Below are positions 1-5,792 of a DNA stretch of 64,000 nucleotides, one piece after another. This DNA is from Bdellovibrionales bacterium (GTDB lineage Bacteria > Bdellovibrionota > Bdellovibrionia > Bdellovibrionales > UBA1609): the NCBI GenBank assembly GCA_019695175.1, contig JAIBAM010000008.1, forward strand, positions 1-64,000, given 5' to 3'. Below the pieces are notes generated by a model. It saw nothing but the letters and a program-made list of their open reading frames with translations. It did not search any database and was not told where the DNA came from. Both the position numbers and the translations under genes were made by a program. Every line of letters begins with the position of its first letter. Position 1 is the stretch's first letter.

Positions 1-57
1 CTCTGTAGCTTCCTTTATAATTTGCTGCTTTTGAGCCTCTGTGTACTGTTTATTCAT
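1..57 (-). CDS. Partial transposase-like protein, N-terminus only
   Basis: Only the first 19 codons lie in the window, read leftward from an ATG at 55-57 behind a weak AAGGG Shine-Dalgarno sequence. The peptide begins MNKQYTEAQKQQIIKEATE, which has the look of the N-terminal helix-turn-helix of IS3/IS911-type OrfA transposases (Y-T-E-x-x-K ... E-A). The rest is outside the window, so an insertion-sequence identity is inference from a short stretch. A truncated gene fragment lies immediately to the right, which fits past insertion activity here. Confidence 0.35.
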   Translation of the reverse strand, partial: MNKQYTEAQKQQIIKEATE

Positions 58-115
58 CTTTTCTACCCTTTCTTTCTATATGGATGATCGAGCCAAATCT
101 GTCCACATCATATAG

Positions 116-379
116 GGGGTTGAAAAGGAATCAGGTTCGTTGGTAAAAACAGGTGTTTTTTCTTTATGTAGAAATCCAATTTATTTTGCAGGGATACTCA
201 TGTGCTTCGGCTGGAGTATTTCTTTTAAATCGCCCTTATCGCTATACAGTTCAATTTTTTTAATTTTTATTCTTTTATGGAAAGTCTCCTATGAGGAAGT
301 TGAATTATCCAAAAAATTTGGAGATGACTATCTCCGATACAAAGAATCCACTTCAAAACTAATACCTTTTATTTTTTAA
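116..379 (+). pseudogene. C-terminal fragment of an ICMT/PEMT-type membrane methyltransferase
   Basis: An in-frame TAG at 113-115 closes the frame upstream. The open part, with a TTG at 140 as the only nearby start-like codon, encodes the conserved C-terminal part of isoprenylcysteine or phospholipid methyltransferases: RNPIYFAGIL (family R-H/N-P-x-Y-x-G), a hydrophobic segment, then EE.ELSKKFGDDYLRYK. Residues before the TTG (about E-S-G-S-L-V-K-T-G) also look homologous, so the reading frame was once longer. Full family members are about 150-200 residues with further membrane helices, so this is a truncated remnant. Any activity is unlikely. Confidence 0.6.
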
Positions 380-391
380 TTTACCTCTTTT

Positions 392-568
392 CTATTGCCC
401 CATAAAATACTCTTGGCTTTTCATTAACTCCTGGTGGTCAGCAGTCATCTGCTCTCGGCTCAATTCTGGATATTTTTGTAAAGCTTCCTCAAGGGGCAAT
501 AGAAACAAGTCTTTTTCATAACTTGTTAGAAAATAATCCCATGGGAGAGGTTCGTGGTTATCGTCCAT
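392..568 (-). CDS. Small hypothetical protein, 58 aa, last gene of element operon
   Basis: A short leftward gene starts at ATG 566-568, overlapping the end of the preceding papain-like gene (stop at 558-560) by 11 bases and preceded by a good GGAG Shine-Dalgarno sequence, so it is probably translationally coupled. The product begins MDDNHEPLPWDYFLTSYEKD and ends near YFMGQ. It is acidic, with no membrane segment or recognisable motif. The tight overlap is the main evidence that it is real. Function unknown; it may be a partner of the upstream protein. Confidence 0.6.
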   Translation of the reverse strand: MDDNHEPLPWDYFLTSYEKDLFLLPLEEALQKYPELSREQMTADHQELMKSQEYFMGQ

Positions 569-1142
569 CTTGCTCTCCAGGATTAACCGAAAAAAATATC
601 AGGGTTGTCGGTCGGGAAAAATAAAAAGCTCGGAGCAAGAAGTTTAAGCCTACTTGCAAGCTATCAAAGTAAACTTCGTTGTCTTCGCTATGAACAAAAG
701 AAACATGATTGAGGGAGTTTGTGGCTGGATCGCCAGGCTTATCGGGAATCTCCATCATCGCCAAAACTAAATTGCTCTCGGCAAGTCTTCTTAAAAAGAT
801 TCGCAAGAAAACTTCTTCATCCATACCATTGGGATTCATCACCAACATTCGGCATGAGTTAAAAATCGGGTGCTTATCAACAAACTCCATCATTTTTTCA
901 GGCTGGACTGTGTTGTCGGCTTCTTGTGTTTGCTGTTGGATCCATTTCATTTCGTCAAAAGCAGTTCGCTCGTCATGGAGATTCAGTCGCTCTTTTAAAA
1001 TTAAAATCATATTGAGCAAGGCAAGGGTCGCACAACCACAGGCTCTGGGGTCGGCTTGTCCGATTTTTGTTTTGTCTATGATGGAATAAAAAGGGGCTTG
1101 ATGGGTTTCAATTTTAAGCTCGTTGACTTCAATAATTTTCAT
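558..1142 (-). CDS. Putative papain/C39-like cysteine-protease-fold protein, 194 aa
   Basis: I do not recognise a named family. The pattern fits a C39/papain-like fold: DPRACGCATLALLNM near residues 31-45 puts Cys35/Cys37 at the start of a helix, as in the Q-C-G-x-A motif of C39 peptidases. NHVSFVHSEDNEVYFDS near 145-161 supplies a His146 and Asp160 at spacing typical of the catalytic His and Asp. There is no signal peptide, so it is cytoplasmic. Its start overlaps the upstream stop in an ATGA, and the 58-aa gene overlaps its end. It may be element cargo or an accessory protein; the protease assignment is inference from motif spacing. Confidence 0.5.
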   Translation of the reverse strand: MKIIEVNELKIETHQAPFYSIIDKTKIGQADPRACGCATLALLNMILILKERLNLHDERTAFDEMKWIQQQTQEADNTVQPEKMMEFVDKHPIFNSCRMLVMNPNGMDEEVFLRIFLRRLAESNLVLAMMEIPDKPGDPATNSLNHVSFVHSEDNEVYFDSLQVGLNFLLRAFYFSRPTTLIFFSVNPGEQDGR

Positions 1143-1354
1143 GACTGCTCCTCTTGTGGTCTTGCAGAGAAAAATTGACTGAACTGATTTCGCAGTCCCT
1201 CCAGCTTTTCGCTAAAGGCAATGTCCTTTGCCTTTTTGGCTCGCTCATTTTCTGCAAACCTATTTGTTAATCGCTTTAGCTCTTGCATCTCCTCATCTTT
1301 CTTATTCTTCCAATTCAAGATTTGGTTCAGGATTTCTTTTTATGTAAAGCTCAT
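1139..1354 (-). pseudogene. Coiled-coil ORF with in-frame TAA at codon 5
   Basis: A very strong Shine-Dalgarno (GAGGAGGTGAGCC) precedes ATG at 1352-1354, which reads M-S-F-T then TAA (1340-1342). The same frame continues open for 66 further codons to a TGA at 1139-1141 overlapping the next gene's ATG. The continuation is charged and helical (KEILNQILNWKNKKDEEMQE onward), a probable coiled coil. Restoring codon 5, for example CAA to TAA, would give a normal 71-residue protein coupled at both ends. It is therefore either a nonsense-mutated gene or translated from an internal TTG or ATG. Sequencing error is also possible. Confidence 0.6.
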
Positions 1355-1371
1355 GGCTCACCTCCTCAAAT

Positions 1372-2142
1372 CTAAATGGAAGATTTCAAAAGTAGGTCGT
1401 GGATTTTTTTTGTGAGCTTTATTCTTTTCGTGGCTTGTTCAATGACCAGAGCCTTTAATTTTGTGAGGTCAATTTTATCGGCAATTTGCTCGGTGATTTC
1501 ACCACAGGCATCAGTTCCCAAAACTCTCAGCTCCAGGTTGATTAAATCTTCTGGCAATTCACTCAGCCCATAGCAGGTCAAAAACTTTTTAAAATAGTCG
1601 TTCCCTTTTTCTTTCTTCATCTGGGTGGTCTTTCCATAAGCCACCAGAGCAAATCGGGAGTTGTAGGCTTTGTGATAGACGATGGATTTTTTCTTTTTTA
1701 ACAAATACTGGGTAAGTCGCTTAAAATCGCATCGGTCTAATGCCTGATAAATATTGGACTGCTGGCTGATGAACGATATATCAAATCTGCTCACCAAAAA
1801 CTTGATGTTCCGCTCTTTCAAAAATTGAATCACCAGCTCCAGTTTTTCAATAGCATCGGGTCGTAGAAAAAAGAGTCCCTTGAATTGCAAGGACTTCTGG
1901 AATGGTCGGAACGATAAAAATATTTCTTTGCTCTCGCTTTGGTAAAGGACCCGTGAGTTCCAATTGGAACTGTGGCAGGGCATCTTCAGCAATGCAAAAA
2001 GCTCATAAGCCAGAGCATCGCTCACCATGAGGGTGGAACTGTAGGGCAACCCATCCTCGTCAGCCTGGGGAATAATAAGGGTTGTTTTTTGTTCGTCATA
2101 AATCTGTAAATCCAAATAATCCAATCGGGCAATCTGCTTCAT
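1372..2142 (-). CDS. Rep_trans/MobT-like rolling-circle initiator or relaxase
   Basis: The start is ATG 2140-2142, with GGAGG four bases upstream, in preference to an upstream in-frame codon; the product is 256 aa. Features match the replication initiation factor family (PF02486: pT181 RepC, RstA, Tn916 Orf20/MobT, ICEBs1 NicK). There is a basic first half, SRFDISF at about 118-124 (family V-x-R-x-D), then RFALVAYGK with Tyr169 in the position of the family's Y-D-K strand, followed by INLELRV at about 201-207. It directly follows the FtsK/TcpA-like gene, the order seen in Tn916 and ICEBs1. It probably nicks one strand at an origin or oriT to start replication or transfer. Assignment is by motif pattern only. 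Confidence 0.6.
   Translation of the reverse strand: MKQIARLDYLDLQIYDEQKTTLIIPQADEDGLPYSSTLMVSDALAYELFALLKMPCHSSNWNSRVLYQSESKEIFLSFRPFQKSLQFKGLFFLRPDAIEKLELVIQFLKERNIKFLVSRFDISFISQQSNIYQALDRCDFKRLTQYLLKKKKSIVYHKAYNSRFALVAYGKTTQMKKEKGNDYFKKFLTCYGLSELPEDLINLELRVLGTDACGEITEQIADKIDLTKLKALVIEQATKRIKLTKKIHDLLLKSSI
1373..1386 (-). repeat. Element junction motif, copy 3
   Basis: The minus strand reads AAATCTTCCATTTA. It overlaps the last codons of the Rep-like gene (K-S-S-I-stop) and lies upstream of the GAGGAGG ribosome-binding site of the coiled-coil frame. It is identical over 14 bases to copy 1. Because it is partly coding here, the match is less likely to be simple intergenic drift. Confidence 0.45.
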
Positions 2143-2157
2143 AGAACCTCCACCGCT

Positions 2158-2170
2158 TAAATGGAGATTT
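2158..2170 (-). repeat. Element junction motif, copy 2 (one base shorter)
   Basis: The minus strand reads AAATCTCCATTTA just after the FtsK-like stop codon and upstream of the Rep-like ribosome-binding site. It matches copies 1 and 3 except for one missing T. Confidence 0.45.
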
Positions 2171-3424
2171 TTAATTGTCGTCAGTGAGGAGAAATGGCAC
2201 CTGCACCTTAATGACTTGTCCATTGCCTAAGAAAATAAATCTTCCAGCTTTCAAGGTCGTGTCGGTTAAGGTTTTTTCATCGCCCACTAGCAATCGGCTC
2301 ATTTGGGCAGAGTTTCTTCCCAAAAGAAAATTAATGATATTGGTTCGCTGGAGGGTGAGTTCTTCCACCTTGAGAGTCTGGTTGCTTAAAATCACAAAAA
2401 CTCCAGAGCTTCGGAATAACTGTAAAATGGAGTTGATCAAGTTCGCCAGTTTTTCTTCAAGGTCATATTGTTCCTTGAGTTGGATTTGTTCTTCGCTGGA
2501 ATCTTTGTTGATTCGGATGCTCGGTCGTGGAGTCATGTATTGGCTTAATTCATCGCAAATGAGGAGCATAGGCTGGGGGATGGGTTTCAGGTTGGGGTAT
2601 TTATTTTTTATCTTAAGCCAGTGGGAAATGGTGATGCCATTGTCGGCTAGGTATTTTCGGTATTCATCAATTTCCTTTTTGTAGCTTTCCAGAACCGCAA
2701 CCGCTTCTCGCAGTTCATCCAAAAAAATAGGATTTAAAGATTTGGTGCCTGGATATTTTTTTATCAGCCCATGGAAGTCTGTGCCTTTCGCATCCAAAAT
2801 CAAGACCCTATAAAAATGAGAGCCAGTCGCCTGAATCCAGGTGTTTAAAAATGAACTTGCCACTGCCATGATGGAGTTGCCTTTGCCTCCACCAGCTAAA
2901 GAAAAGATGCCCAAAGAAAAATCACCCTTTCTTAAATCCAAAATCAAATCTTCGCCGATGGCAGTTTTTCCAATCCAATACTGCCCAGGTTCAAAGTTTT
3001 TCGGGCAATCAGTCATTGAGAGAGATTTCTTAAAGCTCTCGGTATATAAGATGATGGGGGCTTGTCGCCAAGGGATTTTAGATTTTCTTGATGAGATATG
3101 CTCAATCTTGATTCCTAAAATATGCTCCAAGTTCGGCTTGAGTCTTTCAAAGTCTGGAATCGCCATTGCTGGATTGTATTTGGTAAGGACGATATTGTTT
3201 TGCTCTTGATGAATCCCAAGAGTGGAAGAGATAACTTTTTCTCGGATGGCTTTGGTATTTTGGTCAGTGATTCGCTTTTCAAAGTAGATTCCAAGCTCTT
3301 TTAAGTGCTTCAGTCGGAATCGGAAATGTTTTTTAATTTTGCGATAGAAAAATACCAAAAGCCCTACTCCGATAAGCAGGGCAATCAGTATCACCAGAGG
3401 TTTAACGGTAGCGATAGAGGTCAT
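2171..3424 (-). CDS. Membrane-anchored FtsK/TcpA-like DNA-translocating ATPase
   Basis: The 417-aa product has one N-terminal membrane helix (about 9-26), a basic linker, and an FtsK/SpoIIIE-type motor. A nucleotide-binding loop FSLAGGGKGNS lies at about 174-184, RVLILDAKG at about 206-214, and a Walker B LLICDELSQ at about 287-295. FVILSNQTLK-type text near 350 matches the sensor strand of FtsK motors (A-T-Q). Conjugative coupling proteins of the Tn916 Orf21/ConQ type have this architecture and sit next to a Rep_trans relaxase, as here. The P-loop is odd: the residue after Lys is Gly rather than Ser/Thr. It likely pumps or couples element DNA at the membrane. It starts three bases after the preceding stop. 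Confidence 0.75.
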   Translation of the reverse strand: MTSIATVKPLVILIALLIGVGLLVFFYRKIKKHFRFRLKHLKELGIYFEKRITDQNTKAIREKVISSTLGIHQEQNNIVLTKYNPAMAIPDFERLKPNLEHILGIKIEHISSRKSKIPWRQAPIILYTESFKKSLSMTDCPKNFEPGQYWIGKTAIGEDLILDLRKGDFSLGIFSLAGGGKGNSIMAVASSFLNTWIQATGSHFYRVLILDAKGTDFHGLIKKYPGTKSLNPIFLDELREAVAVLESYKKEIDEYRKYLADNGITISHWLKIKNKYPNLKPIPQPMLLICDELSQYMTPRPSIRINKDSSEEQIQLKEQYDLEEKLANLINSILQLFRSSGVFVILSNQTLKVEELTLQRTNIINFLLGRNSAQMSRLLVGDEKTLTDTTLKAGRFIFLGNGQVIKVQVPFLLTDDN

Positions 3425-3426
3425 GA

Positions 3427-3705
3427 TTACTTGACCTCATGAACCTTTAAGATATGCACATAGCGGACGAGCCTTCCATTTTTATCAATGAATGCATCCT
3501 GCTTGATTTCCAAATAGTGCTGACCTGGCTTCAGTTCCACATAAGATTTAAAATCTGGAAATGTTGGAGCCTTTAGGTTTTTTCCAAAAGTTTTCTCGTC
3601 TTCAACCAAAACAACCCACTTCAAACCTTTTTCAATATCGTCTTTGTTGGTTGTGAGATTGCACTCCTTGACCTCTACCTTTAATAACTTAATTATTTTT
3701 GCCAT
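3427..3705 (-). CDS. Small element protein, 92 aa, possibly OB-fold
   Basis: The start is ATG 3703-3705, with AGGAG seven bases upstream; an upstream in-frame start lacks such a site. The protein (MAKIIKLLKVEVKECNL...) is rich in alternating hydrophobic residues, suggests several beta strands, has no signal peptide and ends ILKVHEVK. It is first in the leftward operon with the FtsK-like and Rep_trans-like genes. Small beta-rich proteins at this position in rolling-circle elements are often ssDNA-binding, but no diagnostic motif is visible, so that is only a guess. A repeated motif (3750-3763) lies upstream. Confidence 0.6.
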   Translation of the reverse strand: MAKIIKLLKVEVKECNLTTNKDDIEKGLKWVVLVEDEKTFGKNLKAPTFPDFKSYVELKPGQHYLEIKQDAFIDKNGRLVRYVHILKVHEVK

Positions 3706-3749
3706 TGTATTTCTCCTTGTTTTTGGAGGCACCATTGCCTCTGGAGAAA

Positions 3750-3763
3750 TAAATGGAAGATTT
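3750..3763 (-). repeat. Element junction motif, copy 1
   Basis: The minus strand reads AAATCTTCCATTTA, upstream of the 92-aa gene. Related copies occur at 2158-2170 (AAATCTCCATTTA, upstream of the Rep-like gene) and 1373-1386 (AAATCTTCCATTTA, upstream of the coiled-coil frame). All three lie at gene starts on the same strand. It may be an operator, an mRNA processing or regulatory site, or a duplicated intergenic segment. Confidence 0.5.
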
Positions 3764-3793
3764 TAAAAGTGGATTTTAAACATTCTTTTTAAA

Positions 3794-3830
3794 CCTTGTT
3801 TGGGGCTATTAGATATAGCCCCAAACAAGG
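3794..3830. other. Perfect 16-bp inverted repeat: candidate dso/oriT nick hairpin
   Basis: The arms 3794-3809 and 3815-3830 are perfectly complementary around a 5-base loop. On the minus strand the loop region reads GGCTATATCTAATAGCC. From memory, the nick site of pT181-family double-strand origins contains TCT/AATAGCC in the loop of a similar cruciform, and the element encodes a Rep_trans-family protein. It lies between the integrase stop (3837) and the operon with that protein. An alternative is an intrinsic terminator of the integrase transcript, but only a short TTTAAAAA follows it on that strand. Confidence 0.55.
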
Positions 3831-3836
3831 GAATCT

Positions 3837-5114
3837 TTAGGGTGCTTTTTTATAATTCTTTTTGGTGTAGGCGGTCTCATTAAATCGGATGCTTCGTTTG
3901 TCTTTGTAATGGTGCCAGGTTGTTTCAATGGATTTATGTCCTGCCCAAATACTTATTTGCTCAAGGCTTTGTTCTTTGCCCAATAGGAAATCAGTAAATC
4001 CCTTTCGTCCGCAGTAAAGGTCGTATTTAAAATTTGCATCGTAGGTCTTTCGGTCGTCCTTGCAAACCTTGTCCACCCATTTCGGCGATGGTCGTGTCGC
4101 TTGCTTCTTTTCAATCATCTTCAGGGCTTTGGCTTGTTCATCGCAGATAATCGGGATTCGCTTTTCCTTTTCGTCTTCATCCACCACAGTGAGCTTGCTT
4201 TGGTAAACTACGAGAGCTGGGACTCCTCCATGGATTTCAATTTTAGGACTTTTAATCGCTTCATCGCATTCTGATGGTCTTAGTCCAAAAACAAAACTGA
4301 TATAAAGCCAGTTGTATTTCTTAACCGCCTCTAAATCGCCATCCACTCTTAACTTTATTTTTTTAAGGAGTTCCTCGATCATCGGCTGGCTTTCTTTTCG
4401 CACCCCATCTTTGTCTTTGCGGGCGATGGAAATTGCATTCTGGGTCTTGATTCGGAGTTTTCCCACTGGCTCAAAAAATGTTTTGTGTTTTCGTGAATAG
4501 AAAACTCCCCATTTGTTCAAAACATAAAAAATATCTTTGCAGTAGGAAACAGAGTATTTTCGCTTTTCATCCTTCATATAGGCAACCATCAAATCCACAT
4601 TGGTGTTGTAATCATGTGGCTGGAGCTTCAGTTCTTTCGCCATCTCCATCGCAATTTTAAAATTGGTGATGAGGCGATTTTTAAATCGTGGTTTGCCATC
4701 ACTGCCAGCTTGCAGTCGCATCACAAACTCATCCACCAAATCATCGGGGAACAAAGTTTTATCAATGGCTTTTAATTCTTCAAGTCGTCTCAAGGCTCGC
4801 ACTTGAGAAGCAGAAACTTTTAAAGAGGATTTTCTTATCTTGTTATATTTTTTAATTTCGGTTCGGGCTTCAACCAAAGTCATTGCAGGAGTGAGTCCCA
4901 GCTCACCAAACATCGCCTTAGAAACTTGTGTCTGGGTTTTTTTTCCATCTTTCCAGGATTCAAACATCACTCGCCATTTGCCAGAGCCTTTGGGCTTTTC
5001 ACTCACATAGAAAAAGCCCTTGCTTCGCAAAGTTTTGGTCGGAGGATTCGCACTCGTGTTCACAACAACAGGAGCAGATTTTAATTTTTTGGATGATTTT
5101 GTTTTCGTCGCCAT
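3837..5114 (-). CDS. int: Tyrosine recombinase (phage/ICE-type integrase)
   Basis: The start is ATG 5112-5114, with GGAG six bases upstream, giving 425 aa; an upstream ATG is less well placed. The basic N-terminus and central SAM-like core-binding region precede a catalytic domain with FGLRPSE (first Arg, about 287), HKSIETTWHHY (box H and the nucleophile Tyr at about 403) and CGRKGFTDFLL (second Arg, about 368). The usual His of H-x-x-R is replaced by Tyr (Y-C-G-R), a variant needing confirmation. The gene points away from the tRNA-Asn 3' end 117 bases to the right, the classical arrangement for site-specific integration into a tRNA gene. It should catalyse element insertion and excision. 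Confidence 0.9.
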   Translation of the reverse strand: MATKTKSSKKLKSAPVVVNTSANPPTKTLRSKGFFYVSEKPKGSGKWRVMFESWKDGKKTQTQVSKAMFGELGLTPAMTLVEARTEIKKYNKIRKSSLKVSASQVRALRRLEELKAIDKTLFPDDLVDEFVMRLQAGSDGKPRFKNRLITNFKIAMEMAKELKLQPHDYNTNVDLMVAYMKDEKRKYSVSYCKDIFYVLNKWGVFYSRKHKTFFEPVGKLRIKTQNAISIARKDKDGVRKESQPMIEELLKKIKLRVDGDLEAVKKYNWLYISFVFGLRPSECDEAIKSPKIEIHGGVPALVVYQSKLTVVDEDEKEKRIPIICDEQAKALKMIEKKQATRPSPKWVDKVCKDDRKTYDANFKYDLYCGRKGFTDFLLGKEQSLEQISIWAGHKSIETTWHHYKDKRSIRFNETAYTKKNYKKAP

Positions 5115-5231
5115 CGTTTTCTCCATTGGGTAAATCGGAAAAAACGGATGAGTTCTTTAGAGGTGGCACCTACACCACCGACCCTAAAAACCCCGACCAA
5201 ATCTTGTAAGTTATTGAAATCATTAAAGAAT

Positions 5232-5307
5232 TGGCTCAGGCGGAGGGACTCGAACCCCCGACCAATTGGTTAACAGCCAACTGCTCTACCGACTGAGCTA
5301 CGCCTGA
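5232..5307 (-). tRNA. tRNA-Asn (GTT)
   Basis: The minus strand folds as a 76-base tRNA. The 7-bp acceptor stem TCAGGCG/CGCCTGA is followed by discriminator G and encoded CCA (5232-5234). The D arm holds AGCTCAGTCGGTAGAGC, the anticodon loop CTGTTAA has anticodon GTT, and the T loop holds GGTTCGAGTCC. Its 3' end faces the integrase gene, making it the likely attachment site of the element. No second copy of its 3' end was found to the left within the window. Confidence 0.95.
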
Positions 5308-5350: not shown

Positions 5351-5792
5351 ATCCTTATTACAATTAAGGATCTGGGTTTCTAAAGTTTTTGCAAGGATGT
5401 GTCATAGTCTTGCAGACTTTTTTAACAGCCCCTCAGTCCTTGATATTTGGAGGACTCATTTTACAATTCAAGCTTTAAGAAGCTGGTAAAACTACCGTGC
5501 TTATTATGAAATTCATTCGAAAAATTTTTAACACCAGCAAATTTTGCACCTCAAACATTTAACTTAATAAATTTTGTATCCAGTAGTTGTAACTAACGCT
5601 TTCTCTTGGAAGAGTTTCTCAGACACACTCAAACAGAGAACTGATCTTCCTTCGAAAAAGTGGACACGAAAACTGAAGCACAGAGAGCTAATTTTTCGTA
5701 CTCTTCTGGACTCATGTACTCAAGACTTGAGTGACAGAGAAAGGACGGGCGTGAGGAAGGGGGGGGGGGAGCCGACCTCCACCAAATTCCTT
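5351..5792. other. Non-coding stretch with palindrome and poly-G tract
   Basis: No convincing gene is present in about 440 bases; short open frames here lack homology-like composition. It contains a 7-1-7 palindrome (ACTCAAG-A-CTTGAGT, 5718-5732) and a run of 11 G at 5759-5769 just beyond the stop of the antiporter gene. A GGAAGA/TCTTCC inverted pair lies at about 5608-5653. The stretch may be a remnant of earlier integrations beside the tRNA gene. Confidence 0.4.

Follow-up and report, generated by a model that had tools for sequence, protein, structure and literature searches.

A candidate family of integrative mobilizable elements with a shared Rep and FtsK core in Bdellovibrionota

What kind of element lies against the tRNA-Asn gene near the left end of the DNA analysed here, and by what means could it pass from cell to cell? 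The window (the whole stretch of 64,000 nucleotides, G000:C43:1-64000) is the first 64 kb of contig C43 of its own genome, G000, and the host is a Gram-negative bacterium, as an earlier note on this DNA had proposed, and a relative of Bdellovibrio. The open reading frames and the tRNA-Asn gene were found at the coordinates claimed in that note, and the leftward, tight operon that it described was confirmed, as all genes from the integrase gene (int) to a 58-amino acid (aa) gene lie on the minus strand with overlaps or short gaps, and the order recurs with tRNA-Asn in a second genome, G102. In tetranucleotide composition, the 4.84-kb block deviates more than any other stretch tested in the window (0.253 vs. 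a maximum of 0.247 among 108 others). The locus is probably an integrative mobilizable element (IME) of a Bdellovibrionota family, one that would replicate by rolling circle and borrow a type IV secretion system for transfer. Like an IME, it is integrated, carries an integrase together with a candidate relaxase and nick site, and has no pore genes.

Much of the evidence concerns Rep, the protein encoded at 1372-2142, for which the earlier note had expected the Pfam family PF02486. This expectation failed, as Pfam returned just a weak match to Phage_CRI (filamentous-phage G2P, E 0.013-0.065). The invariant or nearly invariant columns in ten diverged Rep homologues include D8, R119, D121, Y169, K171 and E204-L-R. 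In the MOBT relaxase RelSt3, mutagenesis has shown the importance of the acidic residues of motifs N', I and IV and of the Tyr-x-Lys of motif III, and the Rep_trans protein RepD has equivalent residues (PMC6499999). The conserved residues of Rep coincide with these catalytic positions, thus placing Rep with the Rep_trans/MOBT proteins by function. The Rep of the L052 clade (loci in relatives are given as L numbers) deviates at the motif I arginine and aspartate. When the Rep profile was compared with five pT181-type RepC proteins, a match spanning motifs I, III and IV was obtained (hhalign, E=6.6e-5, probability 64), whereas control profiles in the same profile-profile comparison reached E 0.5-0.6. 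This match lends modest, independent support to a Rep_trans-like placement.

The other part of the evidence is a hairpin. MOBT relaxases and Rep_trans initiators act on GC-rich hairpins, whose loop they cleave at CT'AA (PMC9371924), and in pT181 CTACTCTAATAG is found inside AACCGGCTACTCTAATAGCCGGTT. On the operon strand, 3794-3830 reads CCTTGTTTGGGGCTATATCTAATAGCCCCAAACAAGG, a perfect 16-bp stem with CT'AATA and the sole such hairpin within the window element. A hairpin with [CG]TA[AT][AT]A was found 88-188 nt 5' of the start of the small-protein gene in nine of the ten elements tested (the window element counted), some carrying CT'AT or GT'AA instead of CT'AA, and was imperfect in the tenth (L031). 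The stem differences in L014, L015 and L021 are compensated in all 14 of the 14 changed pairs, keeping the pairing. Equivalent hairpins appeared in 0-1 of 1000 shuffled versions of each upstream region, figures that are somewhat optimistic because the regular expression was picked after the hairpins had been seen, although the compensation and the agreement with the published rule are unaffected by this choice. A role as a mere terminator of int is less likely, since different elements have different genes next to it on the upstream side and yet keep its loop, but the hairpin may also terminate transcription. The more distant Rep relatives L055, L056 and L057 likewise carry the hairpin motif close to rep; none was found in the Rep relative L058. 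Taken together, the residues, the RepC match and the hairpin group Rep with Rep_trans by function despite the Pfam result.

The FtsK-type identity proposed for the product of 2171-3424 was supported by PHROG 1358 (E=5e-18) and by a comparison of the ATPase family profile with solved FtsK motors (E=2e-7, vs. 0.03 for TcpA). Walker B and an FtsK-type C-terminal block are kept across the family, the P-loop is AGGGKGNS in the window clade and GSGKS or GTGKT in most others, and all members are 336-433 aa long with one short N-terminal membrane segment. A match in Macrococcus was discarded as a generic 806-aa protein.

Upstream of the ATPase gene, the 92-aa protein (102 aa from an upstream alternative start) matches in place and size HelP, an OB-fold (oligonucleotide-binding fold) protein that serves as a helicase processivity factor (PMC3542172, PMC12614216). 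Its AlphaFold model was too poor (pLDDT, the predicted local confidence score, 44) for a fold search to be meaningful. The leader of the operon contains a box, TAAATGGA(A)GATTT as read on the plus strand, at 3750, which a motif scan also located at 1373 and 2158, ahead of the 59-aa gene and rep. In the predicted fold the upstream box pairs with the ribosome binding site (RBS) and start codon, and similar folds were predicted in the eight elements folded; leader and recurring box look like RNA-level control of the operon.

The integrase is very probably a tyrosine recombinase, as judged from its motif pattern and location. Its C-terminal pattern reads GLRPSE...GRKGF...GHKSIETTWHHY and varies little among three tRNA-Asn-linked copies, and a sub-threshold match to Arm-DNA-bind_3 was detected both in the window (E 0.0016) and in G102 (0.0009). 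In G090, a 44%-identical integrase is also located at tRNA-Asn. The proposal of a tyrosine integrase at the tRNA-Asn 3' end thus stands as regards motifs and place, and lacks the family match considered below.

The same gene order, sought in other Bdellovibrionota as the earlier note had advised, proved to be that of a recurring family. Of 291 related genomes searched, only three besides the present one yielded Rep, in two cases as a close copy, and among 369 genomes of the phylum a Rep match was obtained in 15, eight of which have FtsK beside Rep (G000, G102, G054, G058, G056, G090, G130/G053 and G295; nine genomes). In G102, from another family of the same order, the whole block and tRNA-Asn are conserved at 80-83% DNA identity, and at the far side, 7.1 kb off, the tRNA 3' end recurs as a 19/20-bp copy. 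The cargo there comprises a cupin-acetyltransferase and, by reading, an acetyltransferase and a membrane protein. A serine recombinase gene (L014 5951-7579) ends at the same tRNA-Asn-like site, and a second element in tandem at the tRNA-Asn of G102 is suggested.

The settings of the operon vary. In G054 it occurs without the window integrase and adjoins a serine recombinase that extends into tRNA-Leu at its end, and in G295, from another family of the phylum, the serine-recombinase arrangement is again found at tRNA-Leu with 22/25-bp ends (L054). G058 carries the operon twice, each time with an integrase of a third kind (tyrosine), once at tmRNA (transfer-messenger RNA) and once at tRNA-Gln, the latter with an ABC-F-type ATPase gene as cargo (L030 4290-5774). 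The same five-gene core is present on plasmid pBdHAGR3 of Bdellovibrio sp. HAGR004, which also encodes a fusion between a tyrosine recombinase and a DNA methyltransferase of Dam type (L021 19-1386). Read from these sequences, the operon core is an exchangeable cassette among tRNA, tmRNA and plasmid settings, behind unrelated integrases.

Evidence of recent movement came from the metagenome-assembled genome (MAG) BroJett040 (G130) and G053. They share 6.3 kb at 98.6% identity, from the tmRNA 3' end to a copy of CCTCCACCATTTA, the element (L052/L053) being flanked by copies of CCTCCACCA. The host tmRNA genes are just 71% identical, and no similarity was detected beyond the element. Therefore, the element moved recently between genera. 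This complete element consists of a small upstream gene, the integrase, cargo, a small opposite-strand gene, an 88-aa protein, FtsK, Rep and a 65-aa gene, and no secretion genes were seen in it or in L014. Most relatives (L015 5882-6187, L016 1190-1453, L021 11972-12160; also L029, L030, L052 and L053) have, on the strand opposite to the core, a conserved 60-aa gene (FVPFHKVRKTKNG..LVYLNSGSAIS) that was not seen in the tRNA-Asn elements. In L031 (G056:C5, 1951-2876) a frameshift with an in-frame stop splits rep, by decay or assembly error. Pattern scans of GTDB and IMG/VR with the FtsK alignments returned only two named MAGs, BroJett040 and MAG-402. The family is thus spread through the Bdellovibrio phylum and is not a one-off; as far as could be found it was previously unrecognised, no paper describing it being present in open-access full text, to which the literature search was limited.

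How the family relates to known systems was considered next to the proposal of a Tn916/ICEBs1-like DNA-processing module, which gene order, catalytic residues and the CT'AA hairpin supported; Rep was not placed in PF02486 by Pfam, and neither sequence nor fold linked the 92-aa protein to HelP. In ICEBs1 the order is helP-conQ-nicK (PMC3542172), and a small protein, an FtsK-type ATPase and a Rep_trans/MOBT-type nuclease are likewise contiguous and in this order in all members with FtsK. The other traits shared with ICEBs1, Tn916 and ICESt3 are a coupling ATPase of FtsK/TcpA type (here at the FtsK-family level), the nic motif CT'AA in a hairpin loop and the Asp/Asp/Tyr-x-Lys/Glu active-site pattern. 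In contrast to those elements, the present ones have no type IV secretion genes of their own, PF02486 does not detect their Rep, which has no N-terminal helix-turn-helix, the hairpin lies upstream of the small-protein gene, the small protein has no demonstrable HelP homology and the hosts are Bdellovibrionota. Thus, the core would work like the DNA-processing part of Tn916/ICEBs1, but under the present definition of that superfamily the element does not belong to it, since it has no secretion genes and does not match the defining profiles.

The nearest functional parallel is offered by the pore-less streptococcal IMEs with MobT and TcpA, e.g. IME_SsuBM407_tRNAleu (PMC5704250), which share tRNA integration, a relaxase with an FtsK/TcpA-type protein, the lack of a pore, and gain or loss of TcpA among relatives. 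They differ in belonging to another phylum, whereas in the present family serine and tyrosine integrases are swapped round a conserved core and a plasmid form is known. Plasmids of the pT181 family resemble the element in the hairpin (GGCTACTCT'AATAGCC vs. GGGGCTATATCT'AATAGCCCC) and in the catalytic motifs, but have no FtsK and no integrase, and the Rep-RepC similarity is distant. Actinomycete integrative and conjugative elements (AICEs; Rep, TraB/FtsK and Int) have the same minimal content, but the FtsK of the element is small and unlike TraB in size and anatomy, and a single-strand nick signature is present.

From the insertion site, the modular core, the recent movement of a relative, the hairpin and the active-site pattern we infer a cycle of excision, nicking, rolling-circle replication and mobilisation. 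The divergent tyrosine recombinase would excise the element as a circle, and Rep would nick the hairpin at CT'AATA via Tyr169, starting rolling-circle replication with the aid of the 92-aa protein. The membrane FtsK-type ATPase would then act as coupling protein, handing the Rep-bound strand to the type IV secretion system of another element. The donor would need to contain such a helper system when transfer takes place, or else another route would have to be used; VirB4 is present in six of ten carrier genomes.

Several results weigh against this IME interpretation. The absence of a VirB-type pore noted earlier was confirmed for the element, and VirB4 was not found in its own genome or in G053 (a complete chromosome), G058 and G068. 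Several relatives have Rep without a nearby FtsK gene, so that coupling is not essential for every member (L057 2937-4803, with an integrase alongside at tmRNA; L058 5550-7439, which shares its genome with the G053 element; L055 and L056). PF02486 (Rep_trans) was not matched in eight Rep homologues or in the own genome, the window integrase matched neither PF00589 (Phage_integrase) nor the sister integrases significantly, and the 92-aa protein matched no Pfam or PDB profile, the HelP profiles included. In searches of Pfam, PHROG and NCBIfam, Rep, the 92-aa and 194-aa proteins and the integrase were not placed significantly, and the structure models were unusable (pLDDT 48 for Rep, too poor for a fold search). 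The second copy of the tRNA-Asn 3' end, which the earlier note had proposed to look for, was not found in the own assembly, where the contig ends at window position 1, and neither was an attL.

Some of these results would suit a plasmid-like replicon able to integrate but without conjugal mobilisation. Rep and hairpin would then only replicate the excised circle, FtsK would have a role in maintenance or segregation, and the element would spread by phage or by uptake of DNA, e.g. that of prey or lysed cells. Plasmid initiation is the classical role of Rep_trans proteins, pBdHAGR3 with the same core is a small plasmid typed as non-mobilizable, and the four genomes without VirB4 fit too. Nonetheless, we regard this alternative as unlikely, since a membrane-anchored FtsK beside Rep in helP-conQ-nicK order is a conjugative arrangement (PMC3542172), and the recent inter-genus transfer requires some efficient route. 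Even less probable are minimal conjugative elements specific to Bdellovibrionota, in which FtsK would export Rep-bound DNA without type IV secretion or via predation-specific machinery. Transfer of double-stranded DNA by FtsK alone, as in an AICE, had also been raised; integrase, Rep and FtsK without pore genes, and carriers without VirB4, are consistent with it, yet no positive evidence supports it. The FtsK proteins are short with a single membrane segment, the nearest DNA-processing signatures (CT'AA hairpin and Rep_trans residues) belong to single-strand systems, and TraB-type transfer is described solely for mycelial actinobacteria (PMC5704250), which makes this option very improbable. 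A phage satellite or filamentous-phage-like provirus could account for the G2P similarity of Rep, the tRNA integration and the PHROG label on the ATPase, but filamentous-phage coat and assembly genes were absent from the window element and its relatives, packaging genes were absent from every member, and neither 50,697 phage records nor the IMG/VR scans gave a match; this explanation is largely refuted and can be held as extremely improbable. The IME interpretation thus remains the one that we consider probable.

Table 1. Features of the element and its flanks in the window.
Feature	Position	Strand	Basis and remarks
tRNA-Asn (GTT), attachment-site gene	5232..5307	-	ARAGORN; 3' end (5232) abuts element; arrangement repeated in G102 and, with the 44%-identical integrase, in G090
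int, divergent tyrosine recombinase (probable), 429 aa	3837..5126	-	motif pattern and place; putative catalytic R283, R374, H397, Y407
Candidate nic/double-strand-origin hairpin	3794..3830	-	CCTTGTTTGGGGCTAT-ATCTA-ATAGCCCCAAACAAGG; loop region TATATCT'AATA
Operon leader, predicted to sequester RBS and start codon of 92-aa gene	3706..3790	-	RNA folding in eight elements and motif scan
92-aa protein gene, HelP position	3427..3705	-	conserved in every element with full core
FtsK/TcpA-type ATPase, 417 aa	2171..3424	-	N-terminal membrane helix; P-loop variant AGGGKGNS; Walker B DE at 291-292
Rep_trans-like nuclease (putative rolling-circle initiator/relaxase), 256 aa	1372..2142	-	residue conservation and profile comparison; D8, R119-D121, Y169-x-K171, E204
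59-aa gene, TTG start	1139..1318	-	between rep and 194-aa gene; position conserved
194-aa protein gene	558..1142	-	invariant Gly-Cys and His; in core of most relatives
58-aa gene	392..568	-	conserved in G102 and G054
Phospholipid-methyltransferase-like gene fragment, cut by repeat resembling an insertion sequence (IS)	140..379	+	PF04191 E=3e-10; cargo or chromosomal flank
End of repeated IS-like sequence	1..127	.	common to end of contig C37 and to C6

As shown in Table 1, contig C43 begins inside an IS-like repeat, which puts the element's left end beyond the assembled sequence; by reading, the repeat appears to be the end of an IS3-like element, and the window copy may be incomplete, interrupted on the left by it. 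To the right of the tRNA, short repeats at 5484-5524 and 5642-5733 recur elsewhere in the genome, three copies being near contig ends. An empty-site comparison via the gene to the right of the tRNA was unusable, as no tRNA-Asn adjoins that gene in the relatives whose KefB-like matches were best. The 194-aa protein gave no Pfam and no PADLOC match, and a defence-system reading was dropped on the PADLOC result.

These results suggest that DNA handling by Rep_trans/MOBT and FtsK proteins, described from Firmicutes, also operates in a Gram-negative predatory phylum. The family accounts for many unannotated 'hypothetical' genes in relatives of Bdellovibrio, and its members are small native vehicles for genetics in predators. 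With a precise candidate nick site and active-site tyrosine defined, the crossing of pore-less elements between genera, among bacteria that eat bacteria, comes within reach of direct tests.

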